Below, piece by piece: positions 4,560 to 25,562 of a stretch of 64,000 nt of DNA. Position 1 is the stretch's first letter. Each line of letters begins with the position of its first letter. The DNA lies in NCBI GenBank assembly GCA_021413865.1, contig JAIOPN010000049.1:1-64000 (forward strand). The letters are read 5' to 3'. Under the pieces are notes generated by a model. That model worked only from the letters and a program-made list of their open reading frames with translations. It was not told the DNA's origin and did no database searches. The DNA comes from Planctomycetota bacterium. Its GTDB lineage: Bacteria > Planctomycetota > Phycisphaerae > Phycisphaerales > Phycisphaeraceae. A program made the translations under genes and the position numbers.

Positions 4560-4735
4560 CCTGGCACACCGACAAGAAGATCGGCGAGGTCGTAGTCCTG
4601 CCCAACGGCACGAAGGTCAAGATCGTGTCCATCCGCGGACGGCGGGTCAGGCTCGAGTATTTGAATCCCGAGCCGGGCACCGCGACCCACAGCACAGTGG
4701 CTGGGGGAACTGGCAAGGAGGCAACTCATGCGTGA
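4556..4735 (+). CDS. CsrA-like small RNA-binding protein
   Basis: A 59-residue protein, with ATG at 4556 overlapping the helicase stop (ATGA). Residues 7-41 follow the CsrA pattern: K-IGE-VVV, then a turn with PNGTKVKIVSI, then RGRRVRLEY and NPEP, corresponding to the family's RK.GE...I...I.V.V..I.G..VRLGI.AP. CsrA dimers bind GGA in the leaders of mRNAs and change translation. The C-terminal tail is unusual and lacks the R.E segment common in CsrA. It sits inside a replication/integration operon, so it may act on element or host transcripts; that is inference. A different small beta-barrel fold remains possible. Confidence 0.6.
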   Translation: MTWHTDKKIGEVVVLPNGTKVKIVSIRGRRVRLEYLNPEPGTATHSTVAGGTGKEATHA

Positions 4736-4967
4736 TGACGCCACCCAGGTCGAGGCAGTGCTGATCTCGATGCAGCAGGTCGCCCAACGGCTCGCATGCA
4801 GCTTGCGCCATGTTCAGCGCCTGCGCGACGCCGGCAAGATGCCGCCGCCGGTGCGGCTGGGCACTCTGACGCGGTGGAACAGGGCGGTCATCGACCAGTG
4901 GATCGCGGACGGCTGCCCCGACCTCCGCAAGCATTCCGCCCTCAAAAACAGGGCAAATACGCCTTGA
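4728..4967 (+). CDS. Excisionase-like HTH protein
   Basis: 79 residues, overlapping the CsrA-like gene by 8 nt. ISMQQVAQRLACSLRHVQRLRDAGKMPPPVRLG (residues about 13-45) is a MerR/AlpA-type helix-turn-helix, and RWNRAVIDQWIADGCP is the typical continuation. Genes of this type directly precede tyrosine integrases and act as excisionase or transcriptional regulator. Here the integrase starts about 60 nt downstream, which supports the assignment. Confidence 0.75.
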   Translation: MRDDATQVEAVLISMQQVAQRLACSLRHVQRLRDAGKMPPPVRLGTLTRWNRAVIDQWIADGCPDLRKHSALKNRANTP

Positions 4968-5028
4968 TCTTCGTGGCCACTTGCCCCTCACTGTGAGGGA
5001 TTCGAGGCCCCGATGCGAGAAACGCCCA

Positions 5029-5739
5029 ATGGCGAATGTTTACCGAAAAAGTTACACGCAGCCTTTGCCGAAGCAATGCGAAATCATCGAGCGGCAGGGT
5101 CGGCAGATGGCCATGTGGATCGACCGCAGGGGTGCGAAGCAATACGACGAGGTCACCATCGGCGAGCGCGGTCAATTCAAGATCGTCCGCCAGAGCCCGA
5201 CGTTCGTCGCGCGATACCGCGACGCCGATGGGCTCGAAATCATCCGCTCCACGGGCTGCCGGGATGAGCAGTCCGCGAAGCAGGTCCTGGCCGACCTCGT
5301 CCGGCGCGTCGAGCACGTCCGGGCCGGAATCCTGACCAACGACGAGAGCCGCCAGGCCGACCACGCCAGCACGCGCATGGACGAGCACGTCGCTGCCTAC
5401 CTCTCGCACCTCCAAGCCAAGACGACGCGGGGCAAGAAGATTTCGACGCATCACCGCGTGAATGTTGAGCATCAGGTCACGCGTGTGGTCCGGGAGTGCG
5501 GGTTCCGCCGCCTCGGCGACATCTCGCGCGAATCGCTTGAAAAATGGATGAACGCACGCGAGGCAGAGGGAATGGGCGGTCGGACGCGCAACTGCCACCG
5601 CGGCTCGATCGTCGCCTTCTGCAACTGGTGCGTCGAGTCGGGACGGTTGGGGTTCAACCCTCTGATCAACCTGAGCAAGGCGGACGAGATCTCCGATCGG
5701 CGCCGGGTCCGAACCCCAGATCCCGGGAGTACGAGTTGA
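5029..5739 (+). pseudogene. Tyrosine integrase, N-terminal part (catalytic domain lost)
   Basis: About 236 residues from ATG 5029 (a TTG at 4981 would add 16). It contains an Arm-type start (MANVYRKSYTQPLP... FVARYRDADG), a linker, and a SAM-like core-binding domain (MDEHVAAYLSHL... ESLEKWMNAREAEGMGGRTRNCHRGSIVAFCNWCVESGRLGFNPL). Homology ends near SDRRRVR, about position 5710, where the dispersed repeat begins, and the frame closes at 5739. None of the catalytic Arg/Lys/His/Tyr boxes remain on this piece; the last box reappears at 5827-5994. I infer a formerly intact integrase broken by repeat-associated rearrangement. Confidence 0.85.
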
Positions 5740-5822
5740 GCGCTTGTTACGAGTCCTTGCACGTCCTAACCGCCAACTGGTACGAAAGCCCGCACGGGTG
5801 CCAGTCCGTCGTAGTCGTTCCC
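5712..5822 (+). repeat. Island repeat, copy A
   Basis: Shares the core beginning GAGTCCTTGCACGTCC and ending CGGGTGCCAGTCCGTCGTAG with five other copies in the window (near 8990, 9690, 29008, 30350 and 32230). The left part (AGATCC.GGGAGTACGAGTTGAGCG) is shared only with copy C at 9657. It lies exactly between the integrase N-terminal and C-terminal pieces. Confidence 0.85.
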
Positions 5823-5826
5823 GCGC

Positions 5827-5994
5827 GTGGCCAGGGCGGCGATGAGGCACAGCACGATCGACTTGACCATGTCGGTTTACACCGACCCCGCGCTGCTCGA
5901 TGTGGCGGGGGCGGTGGAGGCGCTGCCGTCGTTCACGCCGAAGGTCGCACTTGGCGCCCACAAGGCCGCCCCGGCGACTGCCGATGCAGGCTAA
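5827..5994 (+). pseudogene. Integrase C-terminal fragment
   Basis: Reads RAAMRHSTIDLTMSVYTDPALLDVAG and then ALPSF before a TAA at 5992. RHS and the VYTDP tyrosine match the last catalytic box of tyrosine recombinases, which supplies the nucleophilic Tyr. The same sequence appears at 30458-30661. About 100 or more residues of catalytic domain between this piece and the N-terminal part are absent, so the gene is not simply interrupted: material was also deleted. Confidence 0.8.
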
Positions 5995-6059
5995 GTGCTT
6001 GTCCGAATCCTTGTTGCTGCCAAACGGGTGAGTTCACCCGCGGTCTTGCGTCGAAACCA

Positions 6060-8708: not shown

Positions 8709-8987
8709 CCGGTGTCTCCGTGCCCGAGCCGCAACTGGGACAACGACGATACAAGAGCGAACTGTCGCTTCGGGCAGTGTACCCACATCTTCAGTCTGAA
8801 GGATGGAATCACGCTGGGCCGGCCTTCCGAACCTATACCGCCGACCGTCCGTTCTATTCGCCGTGACCGACAAGGAAATGCATTCGCGATGAGTGATTAC
8901 GAGTATCCGGGGGGCCGATGGGGCGTCGGCAAGGCGGTGGTGGGCATCGACCCGGTTGCATGGCTGGCTGAATGGGACGGCCACGTC

Positions 8988-9066
8988 GAGCGCTTGTACG
9001 AGTCCTTGCACGTCCGAACCGACAACTGGTACGAAAGCCCGAACGGGTGCCAGTCCGTCGCAGTCG
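8988..9066 (+). repeat. Island repeat, copy B
   Basis: A slightly divergent copy of the repeat core (GAGTCCTTGCACGTCCGAAC ... GGGTGCCAGTCCGTCGCAG), the most diverged of the six. It is not followed by tRNA or integrase sequence. It lies about 280 bp upstream of the DUF4838 start. Confidence 0.8.
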
Positions 9067-9131
9067 TCTTCTCATTTCCGTCGAACATTCAACCTTGTTT
9101 CCGTGGCTCTGGCTCCTATGATCAATAGTGA

Positions 9132-9264
9132 AGCCGGAGCGAGCAGATCCGCTCCGTGTCGGATGACTAGTTGAAGGGCAGCCCAGTCGTAGATAGGAGG
9201 CCCGTCCACGAGTAAGACGACGTGCGTGAATGCCTTAGGGCGTTTTCGCACGTCGGTTTTTTTT
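9132..9264 (+). ncRNA. Candidate small RNA ending in a strong intrinsic terminator
   Basis: GGAGCG/CGCTCC forms a hairpin at 9132-9151. CGACGTGCG (9218-9226) pairs perfectly with CGCACGTCG (9247-9255) and is followed by eight Ts (9257-9264), an excellent Rho-independent terminator on the plus strand. No credible plus-strand gene ends just before it, so a short RNA, or an unrecognised leader of the CsbD gene at 9310, is possible. A 70-residue minus-strand frame covers the same bases but has no recognisable domain. Confidence 0.45.
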
Positions 9265-9309
9265 ACGTTCGGTTCTTTCAGCAACCTCTAACAACGGGAG
9301 TAACGCATC

Positions 9310-9486
9310 ATGAGTGGCAAAACAGATGTGGTGAAAGGGCGAGTTAAGGAAGCCGCCGGGGCTTTGACCGGCAACGACAAGCTTCGCGCGGAGGGAAAGA
9401 CCGACCAAGCGATCGGCAAGGTCAAGCAGGTCGCCGAGAAGGTCGTCGACCAGGTCGGACGAGCCGCGAAAAAAGTACGAAAGTGA
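9310..9486 (+). CDS. CsbD family stress protein
   Basis: 58 residues, preceded by a purine-rich site (ACGGGAG). It has the CsbD hallmark: V-KGRVKEAAGALTGNDKLRAEGK-DQA-GKVKQ. CsbD proteins are small, highly charged and helical; they are induced by general stress in Bacillus and common in many phyla, and their biochemical role is unknown. The short tail (VVDQVGRAAKKVRK) is basic. A 27-residue membrane peptide follows about 80 nt downstream, a pairing often seen in stress gene sets. Confidence 0.9.
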   Translation: MSGKTDVVKGRVKEAAGALTGNDKLRAEGKTDQAIGKVKQVAEKVVDQVGRAAKKVRK

Positions 9487-9567
9487 AGTTGACGCAGCGT
9501 GTAAACGGGTACGTTTATGTTTCGGGCCGAAGACGGCTCGGTTCAGCCGCAGCGAAAGGAAAAGGCC

Positions 9568-9651
9568 ATGGGATTGATCCTCTTAATCGTCGTGTTAGTC
9601 GTGCTGTTTGGCGGAGGTGGTGGTTACTACTGGAACCGTAGAAGACGGTAA
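9568..9651 (+). CDS. 27-residue glycine-rich single-pass membrane peptide
   Basis: ATG at 9568 with an upstream AAAGGA. The peptide is one hydrophobic helix (GLILLIVVLVVLF) followed by five glycines, YYWN and four basic residues, including the RRRR end. It resembles the small DUF3309-type membrane proteins found beside CsbD genes, although it is shorter than most of them. It is too short for database-independent proof; a clear start site and well-formed membrane/basic pattern support a real gene. Confidence 0.6.
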   Translation: MGLILLIVVLVVLFGGGGGYYWNRRRR

Positions 9652-9656
9652 GGAGA

Positions 9657-9900
9657 CCCCAAGATCCGGGGAGTACGAGTTGAGCGCTTGTACGAGTCCT
9701 TGCACGTCCGAACCGCCAACTGGTACGAAAACCCGCACGGGTGCCAGTCCGTTGTAGTCACCCCCAGTCACCTGTAGTCACATCGACCCCGCGCGGGGCT
9801 CGGGGCGGGGTCGTCGTAAGTCTTGATTGGGTGGGGAGACAGTCGCTTCCTGTCGCCTCCAGTCGCCTGTAGTCACTTGCTGACGTGCCGGGCAAGAAAA
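9657..9900 (+). repeat. Island repeat, copy C, with tRNA-flanking extension
   Basis: Contains the repeat core plus a long extension (GTAAGTCTTGATTGGGTGGG ... TGACGTGCCGGGC) that leads directly into the duplicated tRNA-Gly half at 9901. The same core, extension and tRNA order is present at 32225-32518, so C and F are long direct repeats bracketing 22 kb. Confidence 0.9.
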
Positions 9901-9941
9901 GCGGGTGAGGGGACTCGAACCCCTAACATTCAGATTGGAAA
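9901..9941 (-). repeat. Attachment site: duplicated 3' half of tRNA-Gly
   Basis: These 41 bases are identical to the 3' half of the tRNA-Gly(TCC) gene at 32447-32518, from the acceptor stem through the T arm to the anticodon loop, and identity stops at the loop (GGAAA then CC instead of TC). That is the expected scar when a tyrosine integrase recombines into a tRNA 3' end and rebuilds the tRNA at the far side. It therefore marks the left end of the element lying between here and 32447. Confidence 0.9.
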
Positions 9942-10066
9942 CCTGAGGGGTAGAGGATGTATCGCTTGACTCAAACAAGACTTGTGGGTTGCCCACCCTT
10001 TGCAAGCACGAATCCTTGCAGGTTGGTTACGTTAGGGTGAGGCCCAACGAATAGCAATGATTTCTC

Positions 10067-10094
10067 TTGACTACGGACTCTTGAGTCTTATTAT
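10067..10094 (+). promoter_or_regulatory. Sigma-70-like promoter candidate
   Basis: TTGACT at 10067-10072, then 16 nt, then TATTAT at 10089-10094 (an alternative -10, TTATAA, begins 2 nt later). The match to the -35/-10 consensus is good and the surroundings are unusually AT-rich for this DNA. It points at the structured region 10100-10382. Confidence 0.5.
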
Positions 10095-10099
10095 AAAAA

Positions 10100-10382
10100 T
10101 GGAGCCGCAGAGCAGAGGGTGAGATGTCTGAAGGCGGCTGGCAGGATTTCGGGGGCGAAGCACGGGGCCAATTGACACGGCCCACATCAGAAGGTGCTTC
10201 GGGAAGCAGTAGGGCCGACCGTTTTACGGCTGGGTGTTCGACCCGGGCCGCAACTGACGGTCGGCCATCTTTATGGGTGATTCCCGTCGTCGGTGCAATG
10301 AAAGAAAGGCGATGTCACCGCCGACCGTTATTCCCCTGCCCAGATGGATTGAGTCTCATGATGACTCCAAGCACGCTTTTTT
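10100..10382 (+). ncRNA. Structured RNA candidate (three nested hairpins), possible leader of the nitrate operon
   Basis: Hairpin 1: CGAAGCAC (10156-10163) pairs with GTGCTTCG (10194-10201), with an inner GGGCC/GGCCC. Hairpin 2: GGCCGACCGT (10213-10222) pairs perfectly with ACGGTCGGCC (10257-10266), with inner CGGC/GCCG and GGGT/ACCC. Hairpin 3: GTCGTCGGTG (10286-10295) pairs with CACCGCCGAC (10316-10325) with one mismatch. A short GAGTC/GACTC stem and six Ts close the region at 10382, where the transposon begins. A 97-residue frame (10124-10417) spans it with a fair ribosome site, but it runs into the transposon end and has no recognisable domain. It matches no RNA family I know. Confidence 0.5.
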
Positions 10383-10413
10383 GGGCAATAATATACTTGA
10401 CTCCGGTAGCCGA
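10383..10413 (+). repeat. Left terminal inverted repeat of the transposon
   Basis: Starts GGGCAATAATATAC and continues TTGACTCCGG. It agrees with the reverse complement of 14585-14615 at 26 of 31 positions by eye. The transposase ATG lies about 20 bp inside. Confidence 0.85.
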
Positions 10414-10431
10414 CTAGGGTAAGATTTAGGC

Positions 10432-11382
10432 ATGGAAACGAAGAACACCATGCCCGAGACGCTAATCCAAGCCGTTCGCACCTTTTCCGATCTGGACTAC
10501 GCAACGGCTTTCTTCGCTCAAATCCGCTGGCCCAAGGGTGTCCGCTGCCCGCACTGCGGCTCGGATCAGGTCGATTACATGGCCGCGCGGCGTCTCTGGC
10601 AGTGCCGCGCCAAGCATGCCCGCAATCAGTTCTCGGTCAAGGTCGGCACGATCTTTGAAGAGTGCAAGCTGACGATCGACAAGTGCCTCATCGCAATCTG
10701 GCTGGAGGTCAACGCCAAGAACAGCATCAGCAGCTATGAGGTTGCCCGGCACCTTGGCGTCACGCAAAAGACGGCTTGGTTCCTCCAGCAGCGCATCCGG
10801 CTCGCCATGCAGGTCGGGACGTTCGACAAGATGCTCAAGGGTGAGGTCGAAGTCGATGAGACGTTCATCGGCGGCAAGGCCCGCAACATGCACCCCGGCA
10901 AGCGCAAGGCCAAAGGGCGCGGTGCAACGGGCAAGGCGGTCGTCATGGGGCTGTTGGAGCGGCACGGTGAGGTTCGCACCCTTGTGGTCGACAACACGAA
11001 GCGCCGCACGCTCAAGCCCCACATTCACGCCCACGTCGAGAAGGGGACGCAAGTGTTCACCGACGCGCTCGCCTCTTACGCGGGCCTGAATCCCGAATAC
11101 GTCCATCAGGTGATCGACCATGCCGAGTGCTACGCCAAGGGCAACATTCACACGAACGGGCTGGAGAATTATTGGAGCCTGTTCAAGCGGTGCATCAAGG
11201 GCACGCACGTTTCGGTTGAGCCGTTCCATCTTTTTCGGTACTTGGATGCCGAGGCTTTCCGATACAATAACCGCAAGACGACGGACGGCGAGCGGTTCCT
11301 GGGCGTGCTCAAAGGCGCGGCGGGCAAGCGCCTGACGTACAAGGGTCTGATCGGTGAGGCGTTGCAGGTGTCGGCAGCATAA
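10432..11382 (+). CDS. IS1595 family (ISXO2-like) transposase
   Basis: 316 residues, complete. The N-terminus has the family's zinc ribbon (RCPHCGSDQV ... LWQCRAKH), then an HTH-like helix (SSYEVARHLGVTQKTAWFLQQRIR), then the ISXO2-like DDE domain: D in EVDETFIGG near residue 142, D in VFTDALASY near 210, and the final acidic position in NGLENYWSLFKR near 245. It catalyses cut-and-paste or copy-type movement of the element. Nothing suggests inactivation. Alternative upstream starts are possible but MET at 10432 is sound; the second Met (10450) would shorten it by six residues. Confidence 0.95.
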   Translation: METKNTMPETLIQAVRTFSDLDYATAFFAQIRWPKGVRCPHCGSDQVDYMAARRLWQCRAKHARNQFSVKVGTIFEECKLTIDKCLIAIWLEVNAKNSISSYEVARHLGVTQKTAWFLQQRIRLAMQVGTFDKMLKGEVEVDETFIGGKARNMHPGKRKAKGRGATGKAVVMGLLERHGEVRTLVVDNTKRRTLKPHIHAHVEKGTQVFTDALASYAGLNPEYVHQVIDHAECYAKGNIHTNGLENYWSLFKRCIKGTHVSVEPFHLFRYLDAEAFRYNNRKTTDGERFLGVLKGAAGKRLTYKGLIGEALQVSAA

Positions 11383-11411
11383 GCCGCGTCAGCGGCGCGG
11401 GAAGCGTCGCA

Positions 11412-12164
11412 ATGGCCAAAAACCTAAAGATTGAGCTTTCGGGTGAAGGCGAAAAGCTCACGGTCAAGACGCTAATTGAACGTCTTGAGGGAGCGCTTGC
11501 GATGCTGCGCTCGCTTGCTCCCGACGGCGAGTGGGAAGTCGTCATGGTTCGGATGAATAGCCCACTCCAAATAGCGATCAGGAATCCCCGCGCGGATCGG
11601 GCCGTTCGCCAGCATTTTACTGCCCTGCGCAAAATCAAAACAAGTTCTGTGCGCCCGCCGCATCTTACCGATACGGCGATTGACAGCACCCTACAGCTCG
11701 CCGAATCGGTAGAGGCGTATGGGCATCAACCGCTTCGCATGTCCTACGGAAGAGCCCGCGTCGAGATTACGCCGGAAGCCAAGTCAAATCTTGAAACGAT
11801 GGCGGCTACTGCGCGCCATTATTATTACGAAATGACGACTATTCGCGGAATGCTTTATGAAGTCGTCTCTGGGCTTGGTATTTATAGATTCAGAATTGAA
11901 GACCCCGTTACCAAAAAGCATATTCAATGTAATTTTCAGCCCGATCGCCTGAAGGAAGTCAAGGACGCGCTTCAAGAGAAGGCGCAACGGGTGGAGGTTT
12001 ATGGTCGCGCGAAATGCTCCAGTTCTGGCGAAATCAAGTCCATAGATGTGCGCGATATTCGGCCGCTTGTGGACGACGGCGCGCTTATAAGTGAAGCTCC
12101 CGGCATCGACATAACTGGCGGCGCTGATTCTGTAGAACACGTCGAAAGGATAAGGGGGCGTTGA
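11412..12164 (+). CDS. Unknown protein, partner of the PIN gene in the transposon
   Basis: A 250-residue protein I do not recognise. It has no signal peptide or membrane helix. The N-terminal 60 residues hold a leucine-rich helical segment (TLIERLEGALAMLRSLAP); the middle contains QHFTALRKIKTSS; the C-terminal half is predicted beta-rich (YRFRIEDPVTKKHIQCNFQPDRLKEVKDALQEKAQRVEVYGRAK), like a small nucleic-acid-binding or OB-like region. It overlaps the PIN gene by 4 nt (TTGA), so the two are co-translated. The arrangement recalls toxin-antitoxin pairs, but the protein is much larger than usual antitoxins. Confidence 0.7.
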   Translation: MAKNLKIELSGEGEKLTVKTLIERLEGALAMLRSLAPDGEWEVVMVRMNSPLQIAIRNPRADRAVRQHFTALRKIKTSSVRPPHLTDTAIDSTLQLAESVEAYGHQPLRMSYGRARVEITPEAKSNLETMAATARHYYYEMTTIRGMLYEVVSGLGIYRFRIEDPVTKKHIQCNFQPDRLKEVKDALQEKAQRVEVYGRAKCSSSGEIKSIDVRDIRPLVDDGALISEAPGIDITGGADSVEHVERIRGR

Positions 12165-12709
12165 GCACTCCACTTACAAAAATCGCGTGGGACTCCAATA
12201 TCGTTATCGACTGCCTTCAAAAAAAGGAGCCTCGATATAAATGGATTGCGCCCATGTTGAAGGAGGCCGAAGCGGGCAGTCTCCTAATCGTGCTTTCCTC
12301 TCTTTCAATTATGGAGACAACCCGGATCGACGGCAAGGCAATCCATGAGCACGACGGTATCATAAAAGCGTTCTTTGATAAGCCATATATTGATCTACAC
12401 GCATGCGATCGAAAAATCGCCGAGGCCGCTCGCGGTATTCGTATCAAGCATGATGTGGATGGTGCGGATTCTATTCATTTGGCAACGGCCTCCCTTACGG
12501 AGACGACGATTTTCTTGACGAATGACGGGGACGCGCTGCGGCAAAGGAATAAAGGGAAAAACCCCACCCCGCTCTTGCCCCACGACGGAAAGATCAAAAC
12601 GCCGTCCGGCATTCTTCGGATCATGACCCCTGAATCTTACGACAAGATGTGCCAAACCGCCGCCCATCCGATTTACGCGGACGTTATAAATAAACCGTCT
12701 GGCGGTTGA
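12161..12709 (+). CDS. PIN-domain nuclease-like protein
   Basis: 182 residues from a TTG start (GGGGGCG upstream) overlapping the previous stop. PIN-domain landmarks: D in AWDSNIVIDCL near residue 11; the mid-domain METTR near residue 50; the GADSIHLATASL block near residue 102; and TNDGDALR near residue 122. These supply the acidic metal-binding site of PIN ribonucleases. The C-terminal 40 residues are not part of the standard fold. PIN proteins are typically VapC-like toxins or RNA-processing nucleases. Here it lies between an unknown protein and a methyltransferase inside a transposon, so a defence or addiction role is inferred. Confidence 0.85.
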   Translation: MSTPLTKIAWDSNIVIDCLQKKEPRYKWIAPMLKEAEAGSLLIVLSSLSIMETTRIDGKAIHEHDGIIKAFFDKPYIDLHACDRKIAEAARGIRIKHDVDGADSIHLATASLTETTIFLTNDGDALRQRNKGKNPTPLLPHDGKIKTPSGILRIMTPESYDKMCQTAAHPIYADVINKPSGG

Positions 12710-12712
12710 GGT

Positions 12713-14386
12713 ATGACCGACAACATCCTTTATTATGGCGACAATCTGAAAGTGCTCCGTGAGCACGTAGCCGACGAGTCGGTTGATCTTGTGTACCTTG
12801 ACCCGCCGTTCAACTCCAACGCCGATTACAACGTGTTGTTTGCAGAGAAGGACGGCACGCAAGCCGCCTCGCAAATCAAAGCGTTTGGCGATACATGGCA
12901 CTGGGATCAATCGGCGGCAATGGCGTTTCAGGAAGTGGTGGAGGCGGGAGGGAAGGTCTCACAAGTCATGCAGGCGTTTCGCGCATTCCTTGGCGAGAAT
13001 GACATGCTTGCGTATTTGTCGATGATGGCCCCGCGATTGGCAGACCTACGCCGCGTACTCAAGCCAACCGGAAGCATCTATCTTCATTGCGATCCTACCG
13101 CCAGCCACTACCTCAAGCTGTTACTCGATGCGGTGTTCGGTCCGGAGAACTTTTGCAATGAGGTCATTTGGAAAAGAACGCACGCGCATGGTTCAGCAAA
13201 ACGGTTCGGACCAGTGCATGATTCTCTTTTGTTTTATGGGCGCAGCAAAAATTATCTTTGGACGAATCCGCGATCAGCGCATGACCCCGGCTACATTGAA
13301 AAACATTTTCACGCCGACAAGAGCGGGAGATTGTTCTCGCCCATCACGCTAACCGGATCAGGAACCAGAACAGGGGAGAGTGGCAAGCCGTGGAAAGGGG
13401 TTGACCCTACAGACTCGGGTCGCCATTGGGCGATTCCGGGAAGGGTGATGGCAAGACTCGGTCTTTCCGGAGATACGGTTCAAGAGTGTCTTGATAAATT
13501 AGATGCGGCGGGCCGCATCTATTGGCCCGAAAAAGAAGATGGTAAGCCTCGACTGAAATGGTACGCGGATGAACTGGAAGGTGTAGCGTTACCGGATATG
13601 TGGAGCGACATTGCGCCTATATCCGCACAAGCGGCGGAACGGTTGGGATACCCAACCCAAAAACCCGAGGCGTTGCTAGAACGAATCATTCAAGCCAGCA
13701 GCAATGAGGGCGATGTTATACTTGATCCGTTTTGCGGCTGTGGAACATCCATAGCGGCAGCACAAAAGATGAACCGCCGATGGATTGGAATTGACATTAC
13801 GCATCTGTCCATCACCCTCATCAAACACCGTCTCTATTCGGCGTTCGGCGAAAACATCAGGAAATCTTACAAGGTCGTCGGCGAGCCAGAGGACGCGAGT
13901 GGCGCGGCACAGCTTGCCACCGACGACCCCTATCAGTTTCAGTGGTGGGCGCTGTCGCTGGTTCACGCCCGACCCGCAGAACAGAAAAAAGGCGCGGACC
14001 AAGGTGTTGATGGTCGGTTGTATTTCCACGACGAAGCGGAGGGCGGGCAAACCAAGCAAGTCATCTTCTCGGTCAAGGCGGGACACACCGGCCCGGCGCA
14101 CGTCCGTGACCTGGGGCACGTCGTCACGCGCGAGAAGGCGCAGATTGGCGTATTGCTCACGATGGAAGAGCCGACGCGACCTATGCGGACGGAAGCGGCG
14201 TCGGCTGGGTTTTACAAGTCGGCTGGCGCTCAATTCCCACAGTTGCAAATCCTGACGGTCACGGAGTTGCTTCAAGGAAAGAAGATCGACATGCCCGCGT
14301 GGCATGACCGGCGCACGTTCAAATCCGCGCCGAAGGTCAAGGGAAAAGATCAAACACCGCAGAACGATTTGTTCAAACCCGAGTAG
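12713..14386 (+). CDS. DNA methyltransferase (beta class) fused to a restriction-endonuclease-like domain
   Basis: 557 residues, starting 3 nt after the PIN stop. Motif IV DPPFNSN lies at residues 30-36 and motif [10 protein letters not shown] near 338-346, the order of beta-class N4/N6 methyltransferases; a [14 protein letters not shown] block precedes motif I. Residues about 420-500 ([17 protein letters not shown]... [13 protein letters not shown] ... [14 protein letters not shown]) fit a PD-(D/E)XK fold of the Mrr type, with D near 432 and the V-K motif near 454. The protein could modify and cleave DNA, or the C-terminal domain could serve only in target contact. Both domains appear intact. 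Confidence 0.9.
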
Positions 14387-14395
14387 GATGAATCC

Positions 14396-14557
14396 ATGAC
14401 ACCGACACGCGAGACAAAGGGCAAGGGCGAGCTTAGCGAAGGCCCAGACGCGGCGGCACGCTTCCGCGCGGCCGTGGCCCATTTGGCATCAGTGCCGCCC
14501 TCAGCGGCCCCACGGCCCCAGCCGCACCACCGGGCCAAGCCGCGCAGGAAGCGGTAA
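14396..14557 (+). CDS. Small basic proline-rich protein following the methyltransferase
   Basis: 53 residues, ATG 10 nt after the methyltransferase stop. It has an acidic/lysine N-terminus, an alanine helix (DAAARFRAAVAHLASV), then a proline-rich basic tail ending AKPRRKR. I do not recognise a family. Its position before the right inverted repeat and its uninterrupted frame suggest a genuine last gene of the passenger operon, though chance is not excluded. Confidence 0.45.
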   Translation: MTPTRETKGKGELSEGPDAAARFRAAVAHLASVPPSAAPRPQPHHRAKPRRKR

Positions 14558-14584
14558 GCGGCGCGGTGGGGGTTTAGGGGGATT

Positions 14585-14615
14585 GACGGCCTCCGGAGTC
14601 AGGTATATTATTACC
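14585..14615 (-). repeat. Right terminal inverted repeat of the transposon
   Basis: Reads CCGGAGTCAGGTATATTATTACCC toward the outside on the plus strand, matching the left end in inverted orientation. Directly beyond it is TTTTTTGA, matching the T-run before the left repeat. Confidence 0.85.
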
Positions 14616-14664: not shown

Positions 14665-15387
14665 ATGACTATGACAGCGATCAGCACCGACTCGACCGTT
14701 GGCCAGCTTGTCGTTCAACGCCCCTCCCGCTCAAGGGTGTTTCAGCGGCTGGGGATCGACTTCTGCTGTGGCGGGAAGAAGCGGCTGTTGGACGCGTGCC
14801 GCGACAAGGGGCTGGACACGGATGAAGTCGTGCAGGCTCTTGCCGCCGACGAGGCCATCTCCGGCCAGGGCGGCGTGGACGTTGCCGGGATGGGGCTCTC
14901 GCAGTTGTGTGACCATATCGAGCAGACGCACCACGCCTATCTACACACCGAGCTGCCTCGCGTGGGCGCGATGGCGAAGAAAGTGGCGGCGGTGCATGGA
15001 GCAAACCACCCGTGGACAGTCGAGCTTGCGTCGGTGTTCGCGGGCTTTTCCGCCGAACTCGATACGCACATGGTCAAAGAGGAGCGGGTGCTGTTCCCTT
15101 GGATCCGCACCCTGGAGAAATCCGGCCGGTGTGATGAGGGGCATTGCAGCGGTTCGATCGCCAACCCGATCCGCATGATGGAGCACGAGCACGATAACGC
15201 GGGGCGGGCGATGGAGCGCATGCGCGAACTGAGCCACGGCTACACGCCGCCACCGGGCGCTTGTAACACGTTCATTGCGATGCTCGACGGTTTGGCGCGT
15301 ATCGAATCCGACATGCACCAGCACGTTCACAAAGAGAACAACATCCTCTTCCCCAAGGCCGCACTGCGCGAGGAATCGACGGCGTAA
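14665..15387 (+). CDS. ytfE: Iron-sulfur cluster repair di-iron protein (RIC/YtfE/ScdA)
   Basis: 240 residues; GCAGGAG precedes ATG 14665 (a second ATG at 14671 is possible). The ScdA N-terminal domain with the paired cysteines (IDFCCGGKK) is at residues about 30-38. The C-terminal hemerythrin-like bundle supplies His/Glu ligands in HIEQTHHAYL, ELDTHMVKEE, MMEHEHDNAG and DMHQHVHKENNILFP. RIC proteins repair Fe-S clusters damaged by nitric oxide or oxidants. It heads the nitrate-reduction operon, fitting protection of the Fe-S rich proteins downstream from reactive nitrogen species. A 4.2 kb transposon sits just 50 bp upstream and has probably separated the gene from its original promoter. Confidence 0.9.
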   Translation: MTMTAISTDSTVGQLVVQRPSRSRVFQRLGIDFCCGGKKRLLDACRDKGLDTDEVVQALAADEAISGQGGVDVAGMGLSQLCDHIEQTHHAYLHTELPRVGAMAKKVAAVHGANHPWTVELASVFAGFSAELDTHMVKEERVLFPWIRTLEKSGRCDEGHCSGSIANPIRMMEHEHDNAGRAMERMRELSHGYTPPPGACNTFIAMLDGLARIESDMHQHVHKENNILFPKAALREESTA

Positions 15388-15624
15388 ATGGGAACTTTTC
15401 CCCTTGATCGAGCGGTCCGTTGGCGAGATCAACTGGAGACAATTGAGCATGAGGTAGAGGCGATAGAGTGCAAGACGGCGGTGCGTCAAGAAGGATAAAT
15501 GAATAGTGCGGGACCGAGCCTGAGTGCCTGATAAGAGATAACATGGCTGAGGCTTCATTGACGCGGTGTATGCCAATGGTCAATGGCCTGTAAGTTTCAG
15601 CGGTGTACGGGCACAGGGGCCGCG

Positions 15625-16686
15625 ATGCGACGAGATAAAATAATCGCTACAGCCATGGGAGCTCTGGCCACGCTGGTGCTTGCCGGGTTGATCGTGATCG
15701 GTTCGCGGAATCTGGCGCACTTCGACGCGGCACTGGTCGGATACACTTTTGCGACGGTGTTCGCTGTCTTCGGCATTGTGTACCGCTATGCGATGTGGTT
15801 GCAGCGGCCGCCTACAAAGATGTACTGGCGGCGCGGGTGGCAGGTCTTTTTCCTCCAACCCCGATATCTCCTGAGCAACATGGTCGAACTGGCGCGACGC
15901 TTCGCCGTCGAGTTCGTGGCCAACCGTTTCATCTGGCGGCGCGGCAAGGCGCGTTGGGGCGCTCATTGGCTCATCATGTGGGGCTGTCTCCTCGCGGCCG
16001 CCATCACATTCCCCCTAGTATTCGGGTGGATCCACTTTGAGACCGTGCCGGGCAACCTCGACTGGTACCGCGCCTATCTCTTCGGCTTCCCGACGGTGGC
16101 GTTTCCCGTTCATTCGCTGTTTGGCTTCATGGTTTTCCACGGGCTGGTGTGGGCGTCTTTCCTCGTGATCGCCGGCGTGATGCTCGCGATGCGCCGACGG
16201 ATGACCGACCACGGCGCCGCCGCGGTGCAGCAGTTCGGGGAAGACTTCCTGCCCCTGATCCTGCTCTTTGCTATCAGCGTCACGGGCCTGATGCTCACCG
16301 CGAGCTACACGTGGATGAAGGGTTACGCCTACGACTTCCTCGCGATTCTCCATGCGATCACGGTCATCTTCACGCTGTTGTGGCTCCCATTCGGGAAGTT
16401 TTTCCACATCTTCCAGCGGCCGGCGCAGCTCGGGGTGAGTTTTTACAAGGACGTTGGGCGACAGACCGAACAAGCGGCGTGCCGCCGGTGCGGGCGGGCG
16501 TTCGCTTCAAAGATGATGGTGCAGGACTTGATTACCGTCGAGCGGGAATTGGGCTTCCAATACGAAGTGGATCGCGACGATACGGAGCACTTCCAGTGGG
16601 TCTGCCCCAAGTGCCGCAGGGCGCTGTTCGGTCTGGCGCAGGGCGCGATGTGGGCGGCACAACACGAAATCGAGGCACGACCATGA
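15625..16686 (+). CDS. Cytochrome b-like membrane protein with C-terminal CxxC pairs, nitrate reductase-associated
   Basis: 353 residues from ATG 15625 (AGGGG upstream; ATG 15583 would add 14). About six hydrophobic segments are visible, with histidines in or beside them ([40 protein letters not shown]), like the NarI/HdrE group of di-heme quinol dehydrogenases. The cytoplasmic tail holds CRRCGR and CPKCRR, a likely rubredoxin- or zinc-type site. It probably passes electrons between quinol and the Fe-S proteins encoded downstream. Its stop overlaps the start of the cupin gene. The heme assignment is inferred from histidine spacing; it is not shown. Confidence 0.65.
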
Positions 16687-17084
16687 ACGAGCAAGAAGAA
16701 CGGCTTCGACAACACCCGGACGAGCGGTTCCTGGCCCCGCTACATCACATCGATCTGGGTGAGATCGCGGCCCAGCTCCTTGGCGAAGCGCTGCCGAGCC
16801 AGCGCAAACACCGGCAAGAAACGCTGTACCGGCATGGGCCGGTCACCGTCGCCCTTTTTCTTTTCGACAGCGGCGCGCACATGGCCCAGCACGTCGCCGA
16901 GGGCGTGGTGACCGTTCATGTGCTCGAAGGCCGGTTGAGGATGACCGCCGAGGGGAAATCGCATGATCTATCGGCCGGGCAACTTTTGGTCATGGCCCCG
17001 GGGGTGCGGCACGACGTCCATGCCGAAGAAGCCACGCGGATGTTGCTGACGGTGTGCCTGAATGTTTCCAAGACCAGTCTCTAA
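16683..17084 (+). CDS. Cupin-domain protein
   Basis: 133 residues; ATG 16683 overlaps the previous stop (ATGA). A single cupin barrel: [22 protein letters not shown] then [22 protein letters not shown] give the two conserved motifs with His ligands. Small cupins of this sort sit beside nitrite/nitrate genes and may bind a metal or small regulator; no enzymatic role can be assigned. It is followed, 11 nt after its stop, by the molybdoenzyme gene. Confidence 0.8.
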
Positions 17085-17095
17085 CGGGAGCAGCC

Positions 17096-19363
<2,268 letters not shown>

Positions 19364-19387
19364 TCGCTATCCATTGAGCAACTAAGA

Positions 19388-20032
19388 ATGCCCGTACCCG
19401 ACCACCTCAATTTCTATATCGACCCGAGCCGCTGCATCGGATGCCAGGCGTGCGTCCAGGCGTGCACCGAGTGCGATACGCACAAGGGCGAGTCGATGAT
19501 TCATCTGGAGTACGTGGACCGCGGCGAGTCCGTCCAGACTGTGCCGGTCGTCTGCATGCACTGCGACCAGCCGACCTGCGCCGAGGTCTGCCCCGCCGAC
19601 GCGATCAAGCGAACCGACGATGGCATCGTGCAGTCCGCTCTCAAGCCCCGGTGCATCGCCTGCGGCAACTGCGTCGTCGGATGCCCCTTCGGCGTGCCCG
19701 AGGTCAAGATCGAGCAGCAGCTCATGAAGAAGTGCGACATGTGCTACGACCGCTCGTCGGTCGGTAAGAAGCCCATGTGTACCACCGTGTGCCCGAGCCA
19801 GGCGTTGTTCTTTGGCACCCGTGAACAGATCGAGCAACTCCGCCCGCGATCCCGACCGGTCAACGAGTTTCACTTCGGCCGCCAGACCATCACCACGCGG
19901 GTCGGCATGATGGTTCCCAAAGAAGCCCAGGCACACTATGTGGATGTGACGGCCGCGATGGACGAACGAGCGGCTGCACGCCACATTTCTTTGAACGTAA
20001 TAGACGACCCCTTCGCCGAGGTGAAAGCGTGA
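19388..20032 (+). CDS. Four-cluster ferredoxin-type electron-transfer subunit (DmsB/NrfC-like)
   Basis: 214 residues with four cysteine clusters: [39 protein letters not shown] and CDMCYDRSS ... CTTVCP. This is the arrangement of the iron-sulfur subunits of DMSO, thiosulfate and nitrate-type molybdoenzymes. No leader peptide, so it is cytoplasmic and can pair with the cytoplasmic catalytic subunit. The last 60 residues have no cysteines and may bind the Rieske or membrane partner. Its stop overlaps the start of the Rieske gene. Confidence 0.9.
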
Positions 20033-20691
20033 TGGCGACCGACGGGCCCGACAACCACGAACCCCGCCGCGCAGAACCGATGGCACCCCGTGTCCAGCCA
20101 TCGAGCGACGGTCTGACCGGCGTTCCCCCGGTGACAACCTATAAGCCCGCTTCCGAACGCGAACAGCACACGCTCGCCCCGGACGGCCGACCGCCCGAAC
20201 AACAACCCGCCTGGCGCCGCGACTTCCCCATTGACTGGCCGCAGAACCACTATGTTGCGCGGCGTGACTTCACCAAGTTCATGGTCCTCACCAGCCTGGC
20301 CTTCACGGTCGGGCAGTTCTGGATCGGCGTCCAGAATTACCTCCGGCGCCGACGCGGCCAACCGCAGGTCGTCAAGATCGTATCACTGGCAGTGCTCCCC
20401 GTGGGTGGCACGGTCGCATTTGAGTACCCAGAGCGTCACGACGATTGCATCCTGGTCCGCACCGGTGAAAACTCTCTGCTGGCTTACAGCCAGAAATGCA
20501 CGCACCTGGCCTGCGCAGTTGTCCCGCGCCCGGAGAAGGGTGACATCCACTGCCCGTGTCACGAGGGGTACTTCGATCTGGCCACCGGCCGACCGATCGC
20601 CGGGCCGCCGCGAAGGCCGTTGCCTCGCGTCACGCTGAGAATCCGTGGCGGCGACGTGTACGCCACCGGCGTGGAGGTGAGCACGGTATGA
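20032..20691 (+). CDS. Rieske [2Fe-2S] protein with membrane anchor
   Basis: 219 residues from ATG 20032 (a GTG at 20029 is equally placed). A disordered 70-residue N-terminus precedes a twin-arginine-like motif and hydrophobic helix ([19 protein letters not shown]), which would anchor it and may direct Tat export. The Rieske motifs are CTHLAC near residue 160 and CPCHEGYFD near 180, with both Cys/His pairs intact, followed by the usual PLPR loop. Rieske proteins take electrons from quinol beside cytochrome b; here a b-like protein lies three genes upstream. If exported it would be on the opposite side of the membrane from the molybdoenzyme. Confidence 0.9.
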
Positions 20692-20912
20692 AACGCCCGT
20701 TCGCCCGCCAGCAGCGGATGACCGTGATCAACGGCATGCTCTGTGTCGTGCTGACCATCGTCGTCCTGCAATTGTGGTTGCTGACTGCCACGATGAACGC
20801 CTATTTGGGCGGCGACGAAACCGTCATCTGGCCGGCCGCGGCCGCGAGCACCGTTTGTCTGCTGCTGAACGCCGGCCTGCTGCGTTATCTTTACAGAATG
20901 GAGCGGTCATGA
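20688..20912 (+). CDS. Small two-helix membrane protein (DUF6755-like)
   Basis: 74 residues; ATG overlaps the Rieske stop (ATGA). Two hydrophobic segments: [21 protein letters not shown] and [20 protein letters not shown], each with a basic flank. It matches my recollection of the DUF6755 small membrane proteins encoded after Rieske genes. Probably a membrane subunit or assembly aid of the complex; function unknown. Confidence 0.7.
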
Positions 20913-21967
20913 CCGTTCCGACCAGCCCGCCGCCCGCGCAACCGTGGTTGGCGGACCTTCCGCCCAACTACTTCGCGATGGTGATGGCGACGGGGATCGT
21001 CTCGCTGGCCTGCCATTTGACGGGTTTCGAGTTCCTCGCAAAAGCCCTGTTCGGGCTCAACACCGCGTTTTTCATCATCCTCTGGGCGCTCCTGTTCACG
21101 CGGCTGGTGCGCTACCCGGCACGCGTGGCGGCGGACATGATGAGCCACGGGCGGTGCGTCGGCTTTTTCACCACCGTCGTCGCCACGTGCGTGCTGGGCA
21201 GCCAGTTCCTGATCATCGCCCACAGGCCGGGCATTGCAGTGGCCCTATGGGTGATCGGGATCGTGCTCTGGGCCGGGCTCACCTACACCATCTTCACGGC
21301 GCTAACGGTCAAAGCGACGAAGCCGACTCTGCCGGAGGGGATCAATGGTGGTTGGCTCCTCGGCGTTGTGGCGGCGCAATCCGTTGCCGTCTTAGGCGCG
21401 CAGCTCGCCGACCCCATGGATTGGACGCAAGGCCCCGCGTTGTTCTTCTGCCTGACGGTCTGGCTTGGCGGCGGGATGCTCTACATCTGGATCATCTCGC
21501 TGATCTTCTACCGCTACACCTTTTTCGTCCTCAGCCCCTCCGACCTCAGCCCCCCGTACTGGATCAACATGGGCGCAGTCGCGATCTCCACCTTGGCCGG
21601 CGTCATGTTGGCGGGCAATGCGCCGCATTCCACGATCGTCGCGGACCTCCTGCCGTTCATCAAGGGCTTTACGCTCCTGTTCTGGGCCACCGCGACGTGG
21701 TGGATTCCGATGCTCGTCATCCTCGGGGTGTGGCGTCACGTCTTCCAGAAGTTCCCGCTCCGTTACGATCCGCAATACTGGGGTGCGGTGTTTCCCTTGG
21801 GCATGTACACAGTGGCAACCTTCCGCCTGGCTCACCTCTTGGACCTCCCGTTCCTCGCCGTCATCCCGGGGGTGTTCATTTACGTGGCGCTCGGAGCGTG
21901 GTGCGTCGTGTTCGTAGGCTTGGTATGGCATCTCGCGGCCCGTGCCGTGCCACGCTCGTCAACATAA
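20909..21967 (+). CDS. TDT/SLAC1-family anion channel-like transporter
   Basis: 352 residues; ATG overlaps the previous stop. About ten hydrophobic helices. The opening [24 protein letters not shown] and the C-terminal [14 protein letters not shown] are hallmarks of the tellurite-resistance/dicarboxylate transporter (TDT) family that includes bacterial TehA and plant SLAC1. Plant members conduct nitrate and chloride. As the final gene of an operon with no NarK or NRT transporter visible, it is a plausible nitrate or nitrite channel; that substrate is an inference. Confidence 0.85.
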
Positions 21968-22025: not shown

Positions 22026-22856
22026 TTGGCCCCGAAGACAAAAATCTCCAACATGCCGCCGGGCACGCCTCTGTTGCCGCAATCCCTCTGGACCATCGGT
22101 CACTCAACCCGAACGATCAATGAGTTCATCGACCTCCTGCGTCTGAACCAGATCGAGACCCTGGTTGATGTGCGACACTACCCCGGCTCACGCCGTTTCC
22201 CTCACTTCAACAAGCCCGCACTGCAACACTCGCTGGAAACCGTGGGCATCCGCTACGAGCACCTGGTCGAACTCGGCGGGCGACGGCCTGTTCGACCCGA
22301 CTCGCACAACCTCATCTGGCGCAACGCCTCATTCCGCGGCTATGCCGATTACATGGAGACCCAGCCGTTCCGAGACGGCGTTGCCCGGCTGCTGGAAATC
22401 GCGCGCTCCGGCCGAACGGCCATCATGTGCTCTGAGGCGGTCTGGTGGCGCTGCCATCGTTCAATGATCGCTGATTATCTCAAGGCCACGGGCACGCATG
22501 TTTTTCACATCATGGGCCCCAACGCGATACAGGAGCATCCGTACACCTCCGCGGCGCATCTGGTCAATGACCGGCTCTCCTACGAAAGCACGAATCTCTT
22601 TGCCGCATCGCATTTACAGGAGGTCAAACCGATGACAACCAGCTACAAAGTAGGTGACCACGTTGAATGGAACTCAGAGGCCGGCCGCGTCCGTGGGACG
22701 ATCAAGAAAAAAATCACCTCCGAAATCACGTTCAAGGGATATACAGTTCGCGCGTCGGAGGAAGAGCCCCAATATCTAATCAAGAGCGACAAAACGGATC
22801 ACATGGCCATGCACAAAGGCTCGGCGCTCAAAAAAATCAGAGCCAAACGAGTGTGA
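22026..22856 (+). CDS. DUF488 protein fused to a DUF2945 (tudor-like) domain
   Basis: 276 residues from TTG 22026 (AGGAAAGGCAGG upstream); ATG 22053 is an alternative. Residues about 20-170 are DUF488 (TIGHSTRTINEFIDLL... DVRHYPGSRRFPHFN... MCSEAVWWRCHRSMIADYL). Residues about 203-275 are DUF2945 (YKVGDHVEWNSEAGRVRGTIKKK ... QYLIKSDKTDHMAMHKGSALKKI). These are usually separate genes. A perfect AGGAGG lies 8 nt before an in-frame ATG at 22632, exactly at the domain boundary, so the second domain may also be made alone. The biochemical roles of both are unknown; DUF488 is often near stress genes. Confidence 0.85.
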   Translation: MAPKTKISNMPPGTPLLPQSLWTIGHSTRTINEFIDLLRLNQIETLVDVRHYPGSRRFPHFNKPALQHSLETVGIRYEHLVELGGRRPVRPDSHNLIWRNASFRGYADYMETQPFRDGVARLLEIARSGRTAIMCSEAVWWRCHRSMIADYLKATGTHVFHIMGPNAIQEHPYTSAAHLVNDRLSYESTNLFAASHLQEVKPMTTSYKVGDHVEWNSEAGRVRGTIKKKITSEITFKGYTVRASEEEPQYLIKSDKTDHMAMHKGSALKKIRAKRV

Positions 22857-23165: not shown

Positions 23166-25562
23166 TTAGTGTTTGGGGGTCCACAATATCGGCCGACCCA
23201 GCAGCCCTCGGCGGTGGATGCGATCCGGTGAGCCGATCATGCGGAAGGTGAAGGAGTTCTCCTGTCCCGGCTTGATCCAGCGGGTTACGTCGACATCAAG
23301 GTCGGAGGTCTTGGGGTTGTCGGTGGGTGAGTGGACCAATTGGCCGTTGCACCAGACCCAGAGCTGGTCCGCGAGCACGGCTGGAACGTAGAGGAACATG
23401 TTGTCGTCCGCCTTCAACGGTTCTGGCGCTTCGGGTTTCACCGTGAACCGATACCACGCGAAGCCATCGTAAGGATAGCCGTCCGGCTCGCGGTAGCCGG
23501 CGTCGGAAATGTCCACGCCGATGGGGATCACGTCCCACGCCACGCCGCGGGCGACCTCGTCGCGCTGCCACTGGGCGTAGAGGCCTTGGTTGCGGCGGTC
23601 GATCTTGAACTGGGCCTTCTCCGGCGCAATCGCCAGGCGTCGCCCCTTCTCGCCGCCGTCGCGGTCGATCATGGCCTGAAGCTGTGCACGGACGAAACCC
23701 GTGCCGCGCTTCTCGTTGACGACCCACTGCGGGTCGGGCGGGAAAAGCCCCGGCTGGATGGCTTGAACAACCTTGATTGGCTCGTTGAGGCGATCGAGCA
23801 GTGCGAGGGCTCCGCGATACTCGCCGGCGCGCTCCGCCGCGACCAACTCTTGCCACAGGAACATGTATTGATGCACAGCCCGATAGGCGCGGATGCGGGT
23901 GCGGAACGGCTCCTGATCACCCGCCGCCCGCTCGGCCGCGTCGAGGTGCTTCGCCAGGCCACGCGTCGGCTCGGACGGGAAGATCGGCATCCAGTCGCCC
24001 AACTGCCCGGTCCAGGTCATATGCGCATGCGACACCGCGGGCATTGCTTCGATGCCCTCGATGAACCGCTTCATCGCGCCGGCGGCCGGACCGAAGAACC
24101 GCGTGTAGAAATCCGCCAGCAGCGCCTCTACGTCCGCATCGGCGTCCCACATCAGTTTGCAGCGGAGGTAGTAATTCAGCCCGGTGCGCAGGAACGCGTT
24201 GTGCCCCTCGGTCGTGAAGCCGGCCACGCCATGCTTCTTGTAGTACGGCAGGTTCACGCGGATCGAGTGCACGTTCCAGAACGGCATGCGGATCAGGTCG
24301 GCGTGCGGGTCGTAGTCGTAGATCAACAGCGGCGACCCTAGGCGCTCCCAGGCCTCGATCGTGCGCCGCTGCCGGCCGGCAAAAAGACAGATTCCCGAAT
24401 CGAGCGGGTGGATCGAGCAGACACGCAGCTGCGCCAGGTTGATCACCACATTGCGGTTCCACGGCCGCTCCAACCCCTCGGGGGGCGAGACGCGGTTGGC
24501 GTAGGCCAGCACCACGATCTGCCGGTCGGGGAACTCCTTTTTGACCTCGTGGCAGAGGTTGTTGACGAAGTTGAAGTAGGAATCGGAGATCGAGTCGCGC
24601 AGGCCGCTGTCGAGCCGGAAGGCGTGGTCCGCCGCGCGGGTGGCGGGGTCGTGGCTCATCACGTCGGCGTCGGGCGCGGAGAAGGCAAAGCTCATCTCGC
24701 CGGGATTGGCGCGGAAATAATCGCAGACTTCCTTGGCGGCGATCTCCAGCGTCTTGGGATTGCTCAGGGCGAGCATCGTCATGTGCGTGCCCTCGTTCTT
24801 GAACCCGCGCGGGTAGTGCTTGCCGTCGGGGCCCTGTGCGTAGATCTCCGGGAATTGTGCGAAGTACTTGTCTGGGGGCGCGAGGCGGAAAATCGTTCCG
24901 TCACCGGGGAAAGCGTACACACCGCGGTCGGTGCCCTTGTTACGGCGCAGCCACGGCTCAAAGCCCTCAGTGCGGTCGGCCCATCCCGACAGCCAGATGT
25001 TGCGAATGCGGAACGAAGGCCGCTGCTCGACATTCAGATCGGGGATTTCGACCGTCCTTGCGGATGGGATGACCAGGCCGAAATCGCCCGGGAAGTACCA
25101 ACGGACGCCCATGCGTTCGAGCAGGTCGCACGCGGCGTAATACGTGCCGCGATAGGGTCCATCCTCATTGCCGATAACCGCTACATCTTGTCCCTTGGTG
25201 CGCAGGAGGAAGGCTTCTTTCGTGCCGTCGCGGTCTTGGCCCGCGGGGGCCTCAATGCCCAGAGCTGCCAGGGCCTTGGACCGGCCGACGAGGATGCGCG
25301 GGCCACGATGTCGCCCGGCCGCCGGGTCCGATTCCTTGAGGATCGGCACGGTCGCGCCGGATATGCGATAGAGATACGTCTGCAACTCCGTCGCTGCCTC
25401 GTGCGCTGTCGAGGCCGGCTGGTCGGCGATGAGGAGGATGGCTCTGGGCTGGCCCTGGTCGATGACGACGACACCGGCTACCGCCGCGACGCAGTGGGTC
25501 AGGAAGGCCACGGCGAGAGCGATCAAGGCAACAGGCGACACGCGGTACAAGTGATGTGGCAT
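23166..25562 (-). CDS. Secreted DUF4838 domain protein
   Basis: 798 residues with a signal peptide (VALIALAVAFLTHCVAAVAG). DUF4838 region: ILLIADQPASTAHEAATELQTYL, a YRGTYYAACDLLERMGVRWYFPGDFG block (residues about 130-160), and LAYANRVSPPEGLERPWNRN. The C-terminal 150 residues (RYREPDGYPYDGFAWYRF-type region with DNMFLYVPAVLADQLWVWCNGQLV) look like a galactose-binding/jelly-roll domain of glycoside hydrolases. Likely a secreted polysaccharide-degrading or binding protein. It is set between 120 bp direct repeats. It is a paralogue in architecture, not a close copy, of the gene at 6060-8708. Confidence 0.8.
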   Translation of the reverse strand: MPHHLYRVSPVALIALAVAFLTHCVAAVAGVVVIDQGQPRAILLIADQPASTAHEAATELQTYLYRISGATVPILKESDPAAGRHRGPRILVGRSKALAALGIEAPAGQDRDGTKEAFLLRTKGQDVAVIGNEDGPYRGTYYAACDLLERMGVRWYFPGDFGLVIPSARTVEIPDLNVEQRPSFRIRNIWLSGWADRTEGFEPWLRRNKGTDRGVYAFPGDGTIFRLAPPDKYFAQFPEIYAQGPDGKHYPRGFKNEGTHMTMLALSNPKTLEIAAKEVCDYFRANPGEMSFAFSAPDADVMSHDPATRAADHAFRLDSGLRDSISDSYFNFVNNLCHEVKKEFPDRQIVVLAYANRVSPPEGLERPWNRNVVINLAQLRVCSIHPLDSGICLFAGRQRRTIEAWERLGSPLLIYDYDPHADLIRMPFWNVHSIRVNLPYYKKHGVAGFTTEGHNAFLRTGLNYYLRCKLMWDADADVEALLADFYTRFFGPAAGAMKRFIEGIEAMPAVSHAHMTWTGQLGDWMPIFPSEPTRGLAKHLDAAERAAGDQEPFRTRIRAYRAVHQYMFLWQELVAAERAGEYRGALALLDRLNEPIKVVQAIQPGLFPPDPQWVVNEKRGTGFVRAQLQAMIDRDGGEKGRRLAIAPEKAQFKIDRRNQGLYAQWQRDEVARGVAWDVIPIGVDISDAGYREPDGYPYDGFAWYRFTVKPEAPEPLKADDNMFLYVPAVLADQLWVWCNGQLVHSPTDNPKTSDLDVDVTRWIKPGQENSFTFRMIGSPDRIHRRGLLGRPILWTPKH

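Follow-up and report, generated by a model that had tools for sequence, protein, structure and literature searches.

A conserved gene block for a putative membrane-bound nitrate reductase that combines a NasC-type catalytic subunit, a NarI-like anchor and a Rieske protein

The nitrate block is found at positions 14665-21967 of the window, a 64,000-nucleotide stretch of contig JAIOPN010000049.1 from a Planctomycetota draft genome of 4.37 Mb in 67 contigs (GCA_021413865.1). Open reading frames and family assignments place eight genes within it, all on the + strand, and each is of the kind proposed by a first-pass annotation made from the sequence alone. Five of these genes form a conserved core, and their products probably assemble into a single quinol-linked nitrate reductase in the membrane, whose NasC-type subunit reduces nitrate in the cytoplasm. 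The parts are of known kinds. A literature search, with most subscription journals and all of bioRxiv beyond its reach, found no account of their assembly, of the block or of its DUF6755 protein.

The core was defined by using the membrane cytochrome as a query against 84,980 species genomes, which gave 330 relatives, and the best 80 of these were kept as the locus set. The order cytochrome, molybdoenzyme, four-cluster protein, Rieske protein and DUF6755 is complete on one strand in 64 of the 80 loci, which excludes a chance arrangement, and 13 of the 16 incomplete loci run into a contig edge. In locus L059, the core occupies two strands, with the cytochrome and molybdoenzyme genes on the + strand, the four-cluster protein, Rieske, DUF6755 and TDT genes on the - strand, and about 2 kb between them. 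No complete stretch lacks the Rieske gene, which always accompanies the diheme-type cytochrome gene; a system without the Rieske protein, which would have spoken against the first-pass annotation, was not encountered. Median pairwise identities (69 loci) are 75% for the molybdoenzyme, 69% for the four-cluster protein, 64% for the cytochrome and 52% for the Rieske protein. The pairwise distances of these four proteins correlate (Spearman 0.49-0.66), which fits a block that moves as a unit.

The nearest loci are Phycisphaerales records, and locus titles name Planctomycetota, Acidobacteria, Chloroflexi, Armatimonadetes, Myxococcales, Gemmatimonadetes, Verrucomicrobiota and one Hyphomicrobiaceae metagenome-assembled genome. 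A Cyanobacteria metagenome-assembled genome is also among them and is possibly mis-binned. In a plasmid collection, the cytochrome matches only four Deinococcus records, and all three of these that were inspected carry the block; the Rieske protein matches the same four records and two arsenite-oxidase records. Deinococcus adds a further phylum, and the block is known from approximately nine bacterial phyla. Cultured carriers include Herpetosiphon giganteus and Lacipirellula limnantheis. The Deinococcus plasmid blocks (L013, L014 and L119) have an FmdE-family gene and genes for NarK-type proteins of the major facilitator superfamily (MFS) nearby.

The catalytic subunit (17159-19363, + strand) is a molybdoenzyme of the molybdenum-bis(pyranopterin guanine dinucleotide) (Mo-bisPGD) type with an N-terminal [4Fe-4S] site. 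Its start is most likely at 17159, and a GTG at 17054 is a possible alternative. The protein scores 773 bits with the NasC model NF047855 (equivalog cut-off 1100) versus 559 bits with the formate dehydrogenase alpha model TIGR01591, both below the curated cut-offs, and the NarG model TIGR01580 gives only local matches of 20-23 bits. In maximum-likelihood trees, the core molybdoenzymes form one clade with support of 100, located in the NasC region beside nirB-adjacent enzymes of Paenibacillus and Mycobacterium; the sister of this clade is poorly supported (70 and 51). Formate dehydrogenase references, including the source genome's own enzyme, form a separate clade, and Nap, NasA and AioA form a third. 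The ligand motif NGRLCM (Cys-Met) and a second motif are as in NasC, whereas the formate dehydrogenase references carry Cys/Sec-His and Cys-Gln. Judged from its sequence, the subunit belongs with the NasC-type assimilatory nitrate reductases and not with formate dehydrogenases. A formate dehydrogenase identity is ruled out by the Cys-Met motif and the tree, and kinship with AioA is ruled out by the separate grouping of AioA. Phylogeny of this subunit had been set beforehand as a test of the nitrate-reductase assignment, and no clustering with formate dehydrogenases was found. Because none of the 80 molybdoenzyme homologues has a twin-arginine pair in its first 45 residues, the enzyme is taken to be cytoplasmic, as the first-pass annotation had proposed.

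The membrane subunit (15625-16686, + strand) has six predicted transmembrane helices, and hydropathy and charge place both ends inside. Four histidines (H114, H172, H243 and H261) and four cysteines of the predicted cytoplasmic tail (CxxC, 286/289, and CPxC, 327/330) are invariant in 55 sequences. The predicted topology puts H114 and H261 close to the inner face and H172 and H243 close to the outer one, an arrangement that would stack two hemes across the membrane. The 18-residue spacing between H243 and H261 equals that between H187 and H205 of NarI. A bc1-type cytochrome b, with two His pairs approximately 14 residues apart in two helices, is ruled out by the His pattern.

The protein itself belongs to no Pfam family, its sequence profile gave no match in the PDB, and 17 of the 55 homologues match PF02665 weakly (best 4e-5). 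Its AlphaFold model has a mean predicted local distance difference test (pLDDT) score of 90.7. Foldseek alone returned no significant match for this model, and the GPCR-like entries in its raw output reflect a common helical arrangement (TM-score approximately 0.2). On re-alignment, eight NarI entries come out on top (Z 10.3-10.9, root-mean-square deviation 4.7-5.4 Å, 168-185 residues), the match at Z 10.9 having a deviation of 5.1 Å over 176 residues. The Mycobacterium smegmatis EtfD is ninth, at Z 10.2. In fold, the anchor best matches NarI of E. coli, and it is read as a putative diheme cytochrome b. By this evidence, the NCBI name "MFS transporter" for the Deinococcus homologues is wrong.

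The protein encoded at 19388-20032 (+ strand) is a DmsB/NarH-like electron-transfer subunit (PF13247, Fer4_11) predicted to hold four [4Fe-4S] clusters, and 17 cysteines are invariant in 75 aligned sequences.

The Rieske [2Fe-2S] subunit (PF00355; 20032-20691, + strand, start at 20029 or 20032) has a long N-terminal extension and a single anchor helix. Its cluster ligands C156, H158, C174 and H177 are invariant, as are the disulfide-type cysteines C161 and C176. The model has a mean pLDDT of 86.9, and arsenite-oxidase Rieske subunits (AioB) are the best matches by profile and by fold. Ahead of the helix is the motif (A/S/T)RR(D/E)F(T/A)KF, which reads RRDFTKF at this locus; 74 of 77 homologues carry RR[DE][FLY], and the next 18 positions are uncharged in 78 of 78. 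AioB bears a similar SRRQFL motif, and the source genome encodes TatC. Topology and export by the twin-arginine translocation (Tat) system had been proposed as a check on this protein; the motif is nearly invariant and TatC is present, the charge balance is ambiguous, and the outward position of the Rieske domain is a prediction. In bc1 Rieske proteins, a Ser and a Tyr raise the potential of the cluster. The conserved G179 and F181 stand in their place, so a lower potential is expected. The last core gene (20688-20912, + strand) encodes the two-helix membrane protein DUF6755 (PF20540, 122 bits).

The slot directly after DUF6755 holds either a TDT-type or a NarK-type transporter gene. Among the 64 complete loci, TDT is in reach in 37, NarK in 18 and both in none; because the relatives are not independent, this exclusivity is to be read as a pattern to which no p-value attaches. 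NarK was assigned from TIGR00886, which is the best match yet below its cut-off, and from the names that PGAP gives in L119 and in other loci. In locus L067, a gene for NirB with a C-terminally fused NirD domain (L067:5614-8706) is followed by NarK and then the core, and L061 has the same order with NirB truncated by the contig end. MoaA genes lie 3' of the block in several loci. The NarK and NirB neighbours make nitrate the best-supported candidate substrate. Neither NirK and qNOR nor a gene for a periplasmic acceptor was found as a constant neighbour of the block among the loci.

In the proposed complex, nitrate would be reduced to nitrite by the NasC-type Mo-bisPGD subunit, on the cytoplasmic side. 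Electrons would enter from quinol at the outer face, where the Rieske domain may accept them first, relay them, or offer periplasmic donors a second port. They would then pass through two b hemes in the NarI-fold subunit, with H172/H243 as the putative outer pair and H114/H261 as the putative inner pair, to the four-cluster protein and on to the molybdoenzyme. DUF6755 may be a small structural subunit, and TDT or NarK may handle the passage of nitrate or nitrite. Provided that quinol oxidation takes place outside and nitrate protonation inside, the reaction would be electrogenic like that of NarGHI, and energy conservation is plausible. Outside quinol oxidation by Rieske and b-type proteins, coupled to nitrate reduction inside, had been suggested from the first look at the locus. 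The part that stands is that the molybdoenzyme is genetically locked to both proteins; the quinol donor and the direction of electron flow are presumed.

The source genome has no NarG over cut-off, and its only other close molybdoenzyme is its own formate dehydrogenase, a separate gene on contig 27 that exceeds the TIGR01591 cut-off. NirK is over cut-off. On contig 37 (L113), NirK is clustered with a second RIC gene, a qNOR-like protein and an Rrf2 regulator at positions 3188-8906, as a module for nitric oxide handling. The qNOR-like protein is a 765-residue member of the COX1 family without an NCBIfam match, and its likeness is one of sequence. Nitrite made inside would need to exit to reach NirK, if NirK is periplasmic as usual, and the TDT channel is a natural candidate for this step. 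No assimilatory nitrite reductase is over cut-off in this genome. Its sole NIR_SIR protein (window 42728-44590) best matches the assimilatory sulfite reductase hemoprotein, below cut-off.

Several observations weigh against a respiratory, outward-facing complex. Under the positive-inside rule, the charges give no support for an outward Rieske domain: the mean net charge is +0.4 ahead of the helix and +1.7 beyond it. The NarI match of Z approximately 10.9 falls short of 13, the level that the tool regards as safe for helical bundles, even if NarI and EtfD stand above unrelated rows, and no residue of NarI obviously corresponds to the outer-heme ligand H172. NasC-type enzymes of known function are assimilatory (PMC7331816, PMC10100899). 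In a survey of 44 carrier genomes, for which completeness is not stated, NarG is over cut-off in nine (two more look contig-split) and absent at that level from 35, and NirK is over cut-off in one. Because NirK is rare and some carriers have NarG, a respiratory role may not be general. Denitrification is not the general setting, and many carriers may use the block for assimilation or release nitrite.

These data bear on four other explanations. The block might encode an assimilatory or redox-balancing reductase, whose membrane module only feeds electrons from the quinol pool while nitrite passes to NirB/NirA or is discarded, without respiratory growth. The NasC-type catalytic subunit, the NirB-NarK-core order in L067 and L061, and the rarity of NirK agree with this explanation, but respiratory molybdoenzymes are built with just such a four-cluster protein and diheme anchor, and the source genome lacks an assimilatory nitrite reductase over cut-off, yet has NirK and the qNOR-like gene. 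We regard it as somewhat unlikely. A substrate other than nitrate, either formate or another oxyanion, is suggested by sequence overlap with formate dehydrogenases. It is very improbable given the tree, the Cys-Met motif, the NarK and NirB neighbours and the separately encoded formate dehydrogenase.

The Rieske domain could instead be cytoplasmic and carry electrons between the four-cluster protein and either the inner heme or the CxxC/CPxC tail, with the RR motif not being a Tat signal. The higher positive charge after the helix fits this arrangement. The conserved RR[DE][FLY] motif, the uncharged hydrophobic stretch that follows it, the disulfide-type C161/C176, the related AioB motif and the presence of TatC do not, and a cytoplasmic location is unlikely. 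It is quite improbable that quinol oxidation bifurcates as in bc1, with one electron passing to the Rieske protein and an outside acceptor and the other through the b hemes to nitrate. Although the constant proximity of the Rieske and diheme-type cytochrome genes is a bc1 arrangement, the cytochrome is NarI-like without the bc1 His spacing, no periplasmic acceptor gene constantly adjoins the block, and the invariant G179/F181 replace the potential-raising residues. The quinol-linked nitrate reductase with an outward Rieske domain is retained as the preferred reading.

The predicted complex resembles NarGHI in its cytoplasmic catalysis, four-cluster beta-type subunit and putative NarI-fold anchor. 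It differs in having a NasC-type catalytic subunit with Cys in place of NarG and in the added Rieske and DUF6755 proteins; one outer-heme His is in another helix, and the anchor has the extra CxxC/CPxC tail. NarH itself has one [3Fe-4S] cluster, whereas the protein of the block would have four [4Fe-4S] clusters. NasC of the Bacillus subtilis type shares the catalytic clade and active-site motifs; however, it is soluble with other partners, whereas the block has a membrane module, and the NasC score of 773 compares with a cut-off of 1100. Among known Rieske proteins, AioB comes closest, but AioA lies outside the core clade, and Aio is periplasmic without a membrane cytochrome. EtfD of M. smegmatis, with its NarI-like cytochrome b domain, is one of the best fold matches, but has other catalytic partners and no Rieske protein. 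With cytochromes bc1 and b6f, the block shares the Rieske [2Fe-2S] subunit and not the His spacing. Caldithrix couples Rieske/cytochrome b with Nap (PMC5317091).

Haloarchaeal pNar systems also have nitrate reductase genes beside those for a Rieske protein (NarB) and a diheme b protein (NarC) (PMC7754194). NarC is a nine-helix bc1-type cytochrome b and not a homologue of NarI; NarGH faces outside, and NarB was not co-purified (PMC7754194, PMC8301774). The first-pass annotation had placed the block closer to archaeal systems than to Nar, Nap or Nas. This likeness is not upheld, because the anchor is NarI-like, whereas haloarchaeal NarC is bc1-type. Instead, the NasC-type catalytic subunit and the NarI-like anchor put the system close to Nas and Nar at once.

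A phylogeny of the DMSO (dimethyl sulfoxide) reductase family states that the clade of NasC, NapA, AioA and cytoplasmic formate dehydrogenases never pairs with canonical four-cluster or membrane-anchor subunits and that NasA and NasC serve assimilation only (PMC7331816). The gene content of the block contradicts the first statement and puts the second in question. The block provides a candidate nitrate reductase for Planctomycetota, Acidobacteriota, Chloroflexota and others, and its carriers may respire nitrate by a route not described in the literature searched. Surveys that score NasC matches as assimilation could then misread nitrate respiration. We suggest, tentatively, a third energy-conserving nitrate reductase architecture beside Nar and Nap, present in many phyla, with a NasC-type enzyme inside, a NarI-like diheme conduit, and an outside Rieske domain in electron entry from quinol or cytochrome. 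If this suggestion is true, the architecture has been hidden under the misleading names "MFS transporter" and "molybdopterin oxidoreductase".

The remaining three genes of the block encode optional accessories outside the core. The first gene (14665-15387, + strand) encodes a RIC/YtfE-type di-iron protein (TIGR03652, 236 bits, cut-off 204.7), an accessory for nitrosative stress that may repair Fe-S damage caused by nitric oxide; RIC homologues occur in 17 of the 80 loci. A weak sigma-70-like promoter candidate, TTGACG-17-TATTAT (14583-14611, + strand), lies 5' of it, with one such sequence seen versus 1.3 expected in shuffles. A small cupin (PF07883; 16683-17084, + strand) separates the cytochrome and molybdoenzyme genes. 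It had been named as part of the assembly and is present at this locus, but it is kept at this position in only three other loci (L018, L019 and L093). The last gene (20909-21967, + strand) encodes the SLAC1/TDT-family anion channel (PF03595), which is interchangeable with NarK among relatives. Most of the eight genes had been thought to overlap by 1-4 nt. With ATG starts, this holds for four of the seven junctions, and the other three are gaps of 237 nt (RIC/cytochrome), 74 nt (cupin/molybdoenzyme) and 24 nt (molybdoenzyme/four-cluster protein).

Directly 3' of the channel gene, a DUF488 protein is fused to an Hva1_TUDOR domain (22026-22856). Positions 1-14400 have lower GC content in places (0.53-0.60) and look like a mobile or defence island that ends just 5' of the nitrate block. 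Open reading frames named there by eye from sequence are a DnaB/RepA-like ATPase (2877-4559), an integrase-like protein (4981-5739), an IS1595-like transposase (10432-11382) and a PIN-like protein (12161-12709); a family search identified a DNA methylase at 12713-14386 that also matches an Mrr-type endonuclease. Two mutually similar, large open reading frames on the - strand, DUF4838-like by eye, flank the block at 6060-9011 and 23166-25562.

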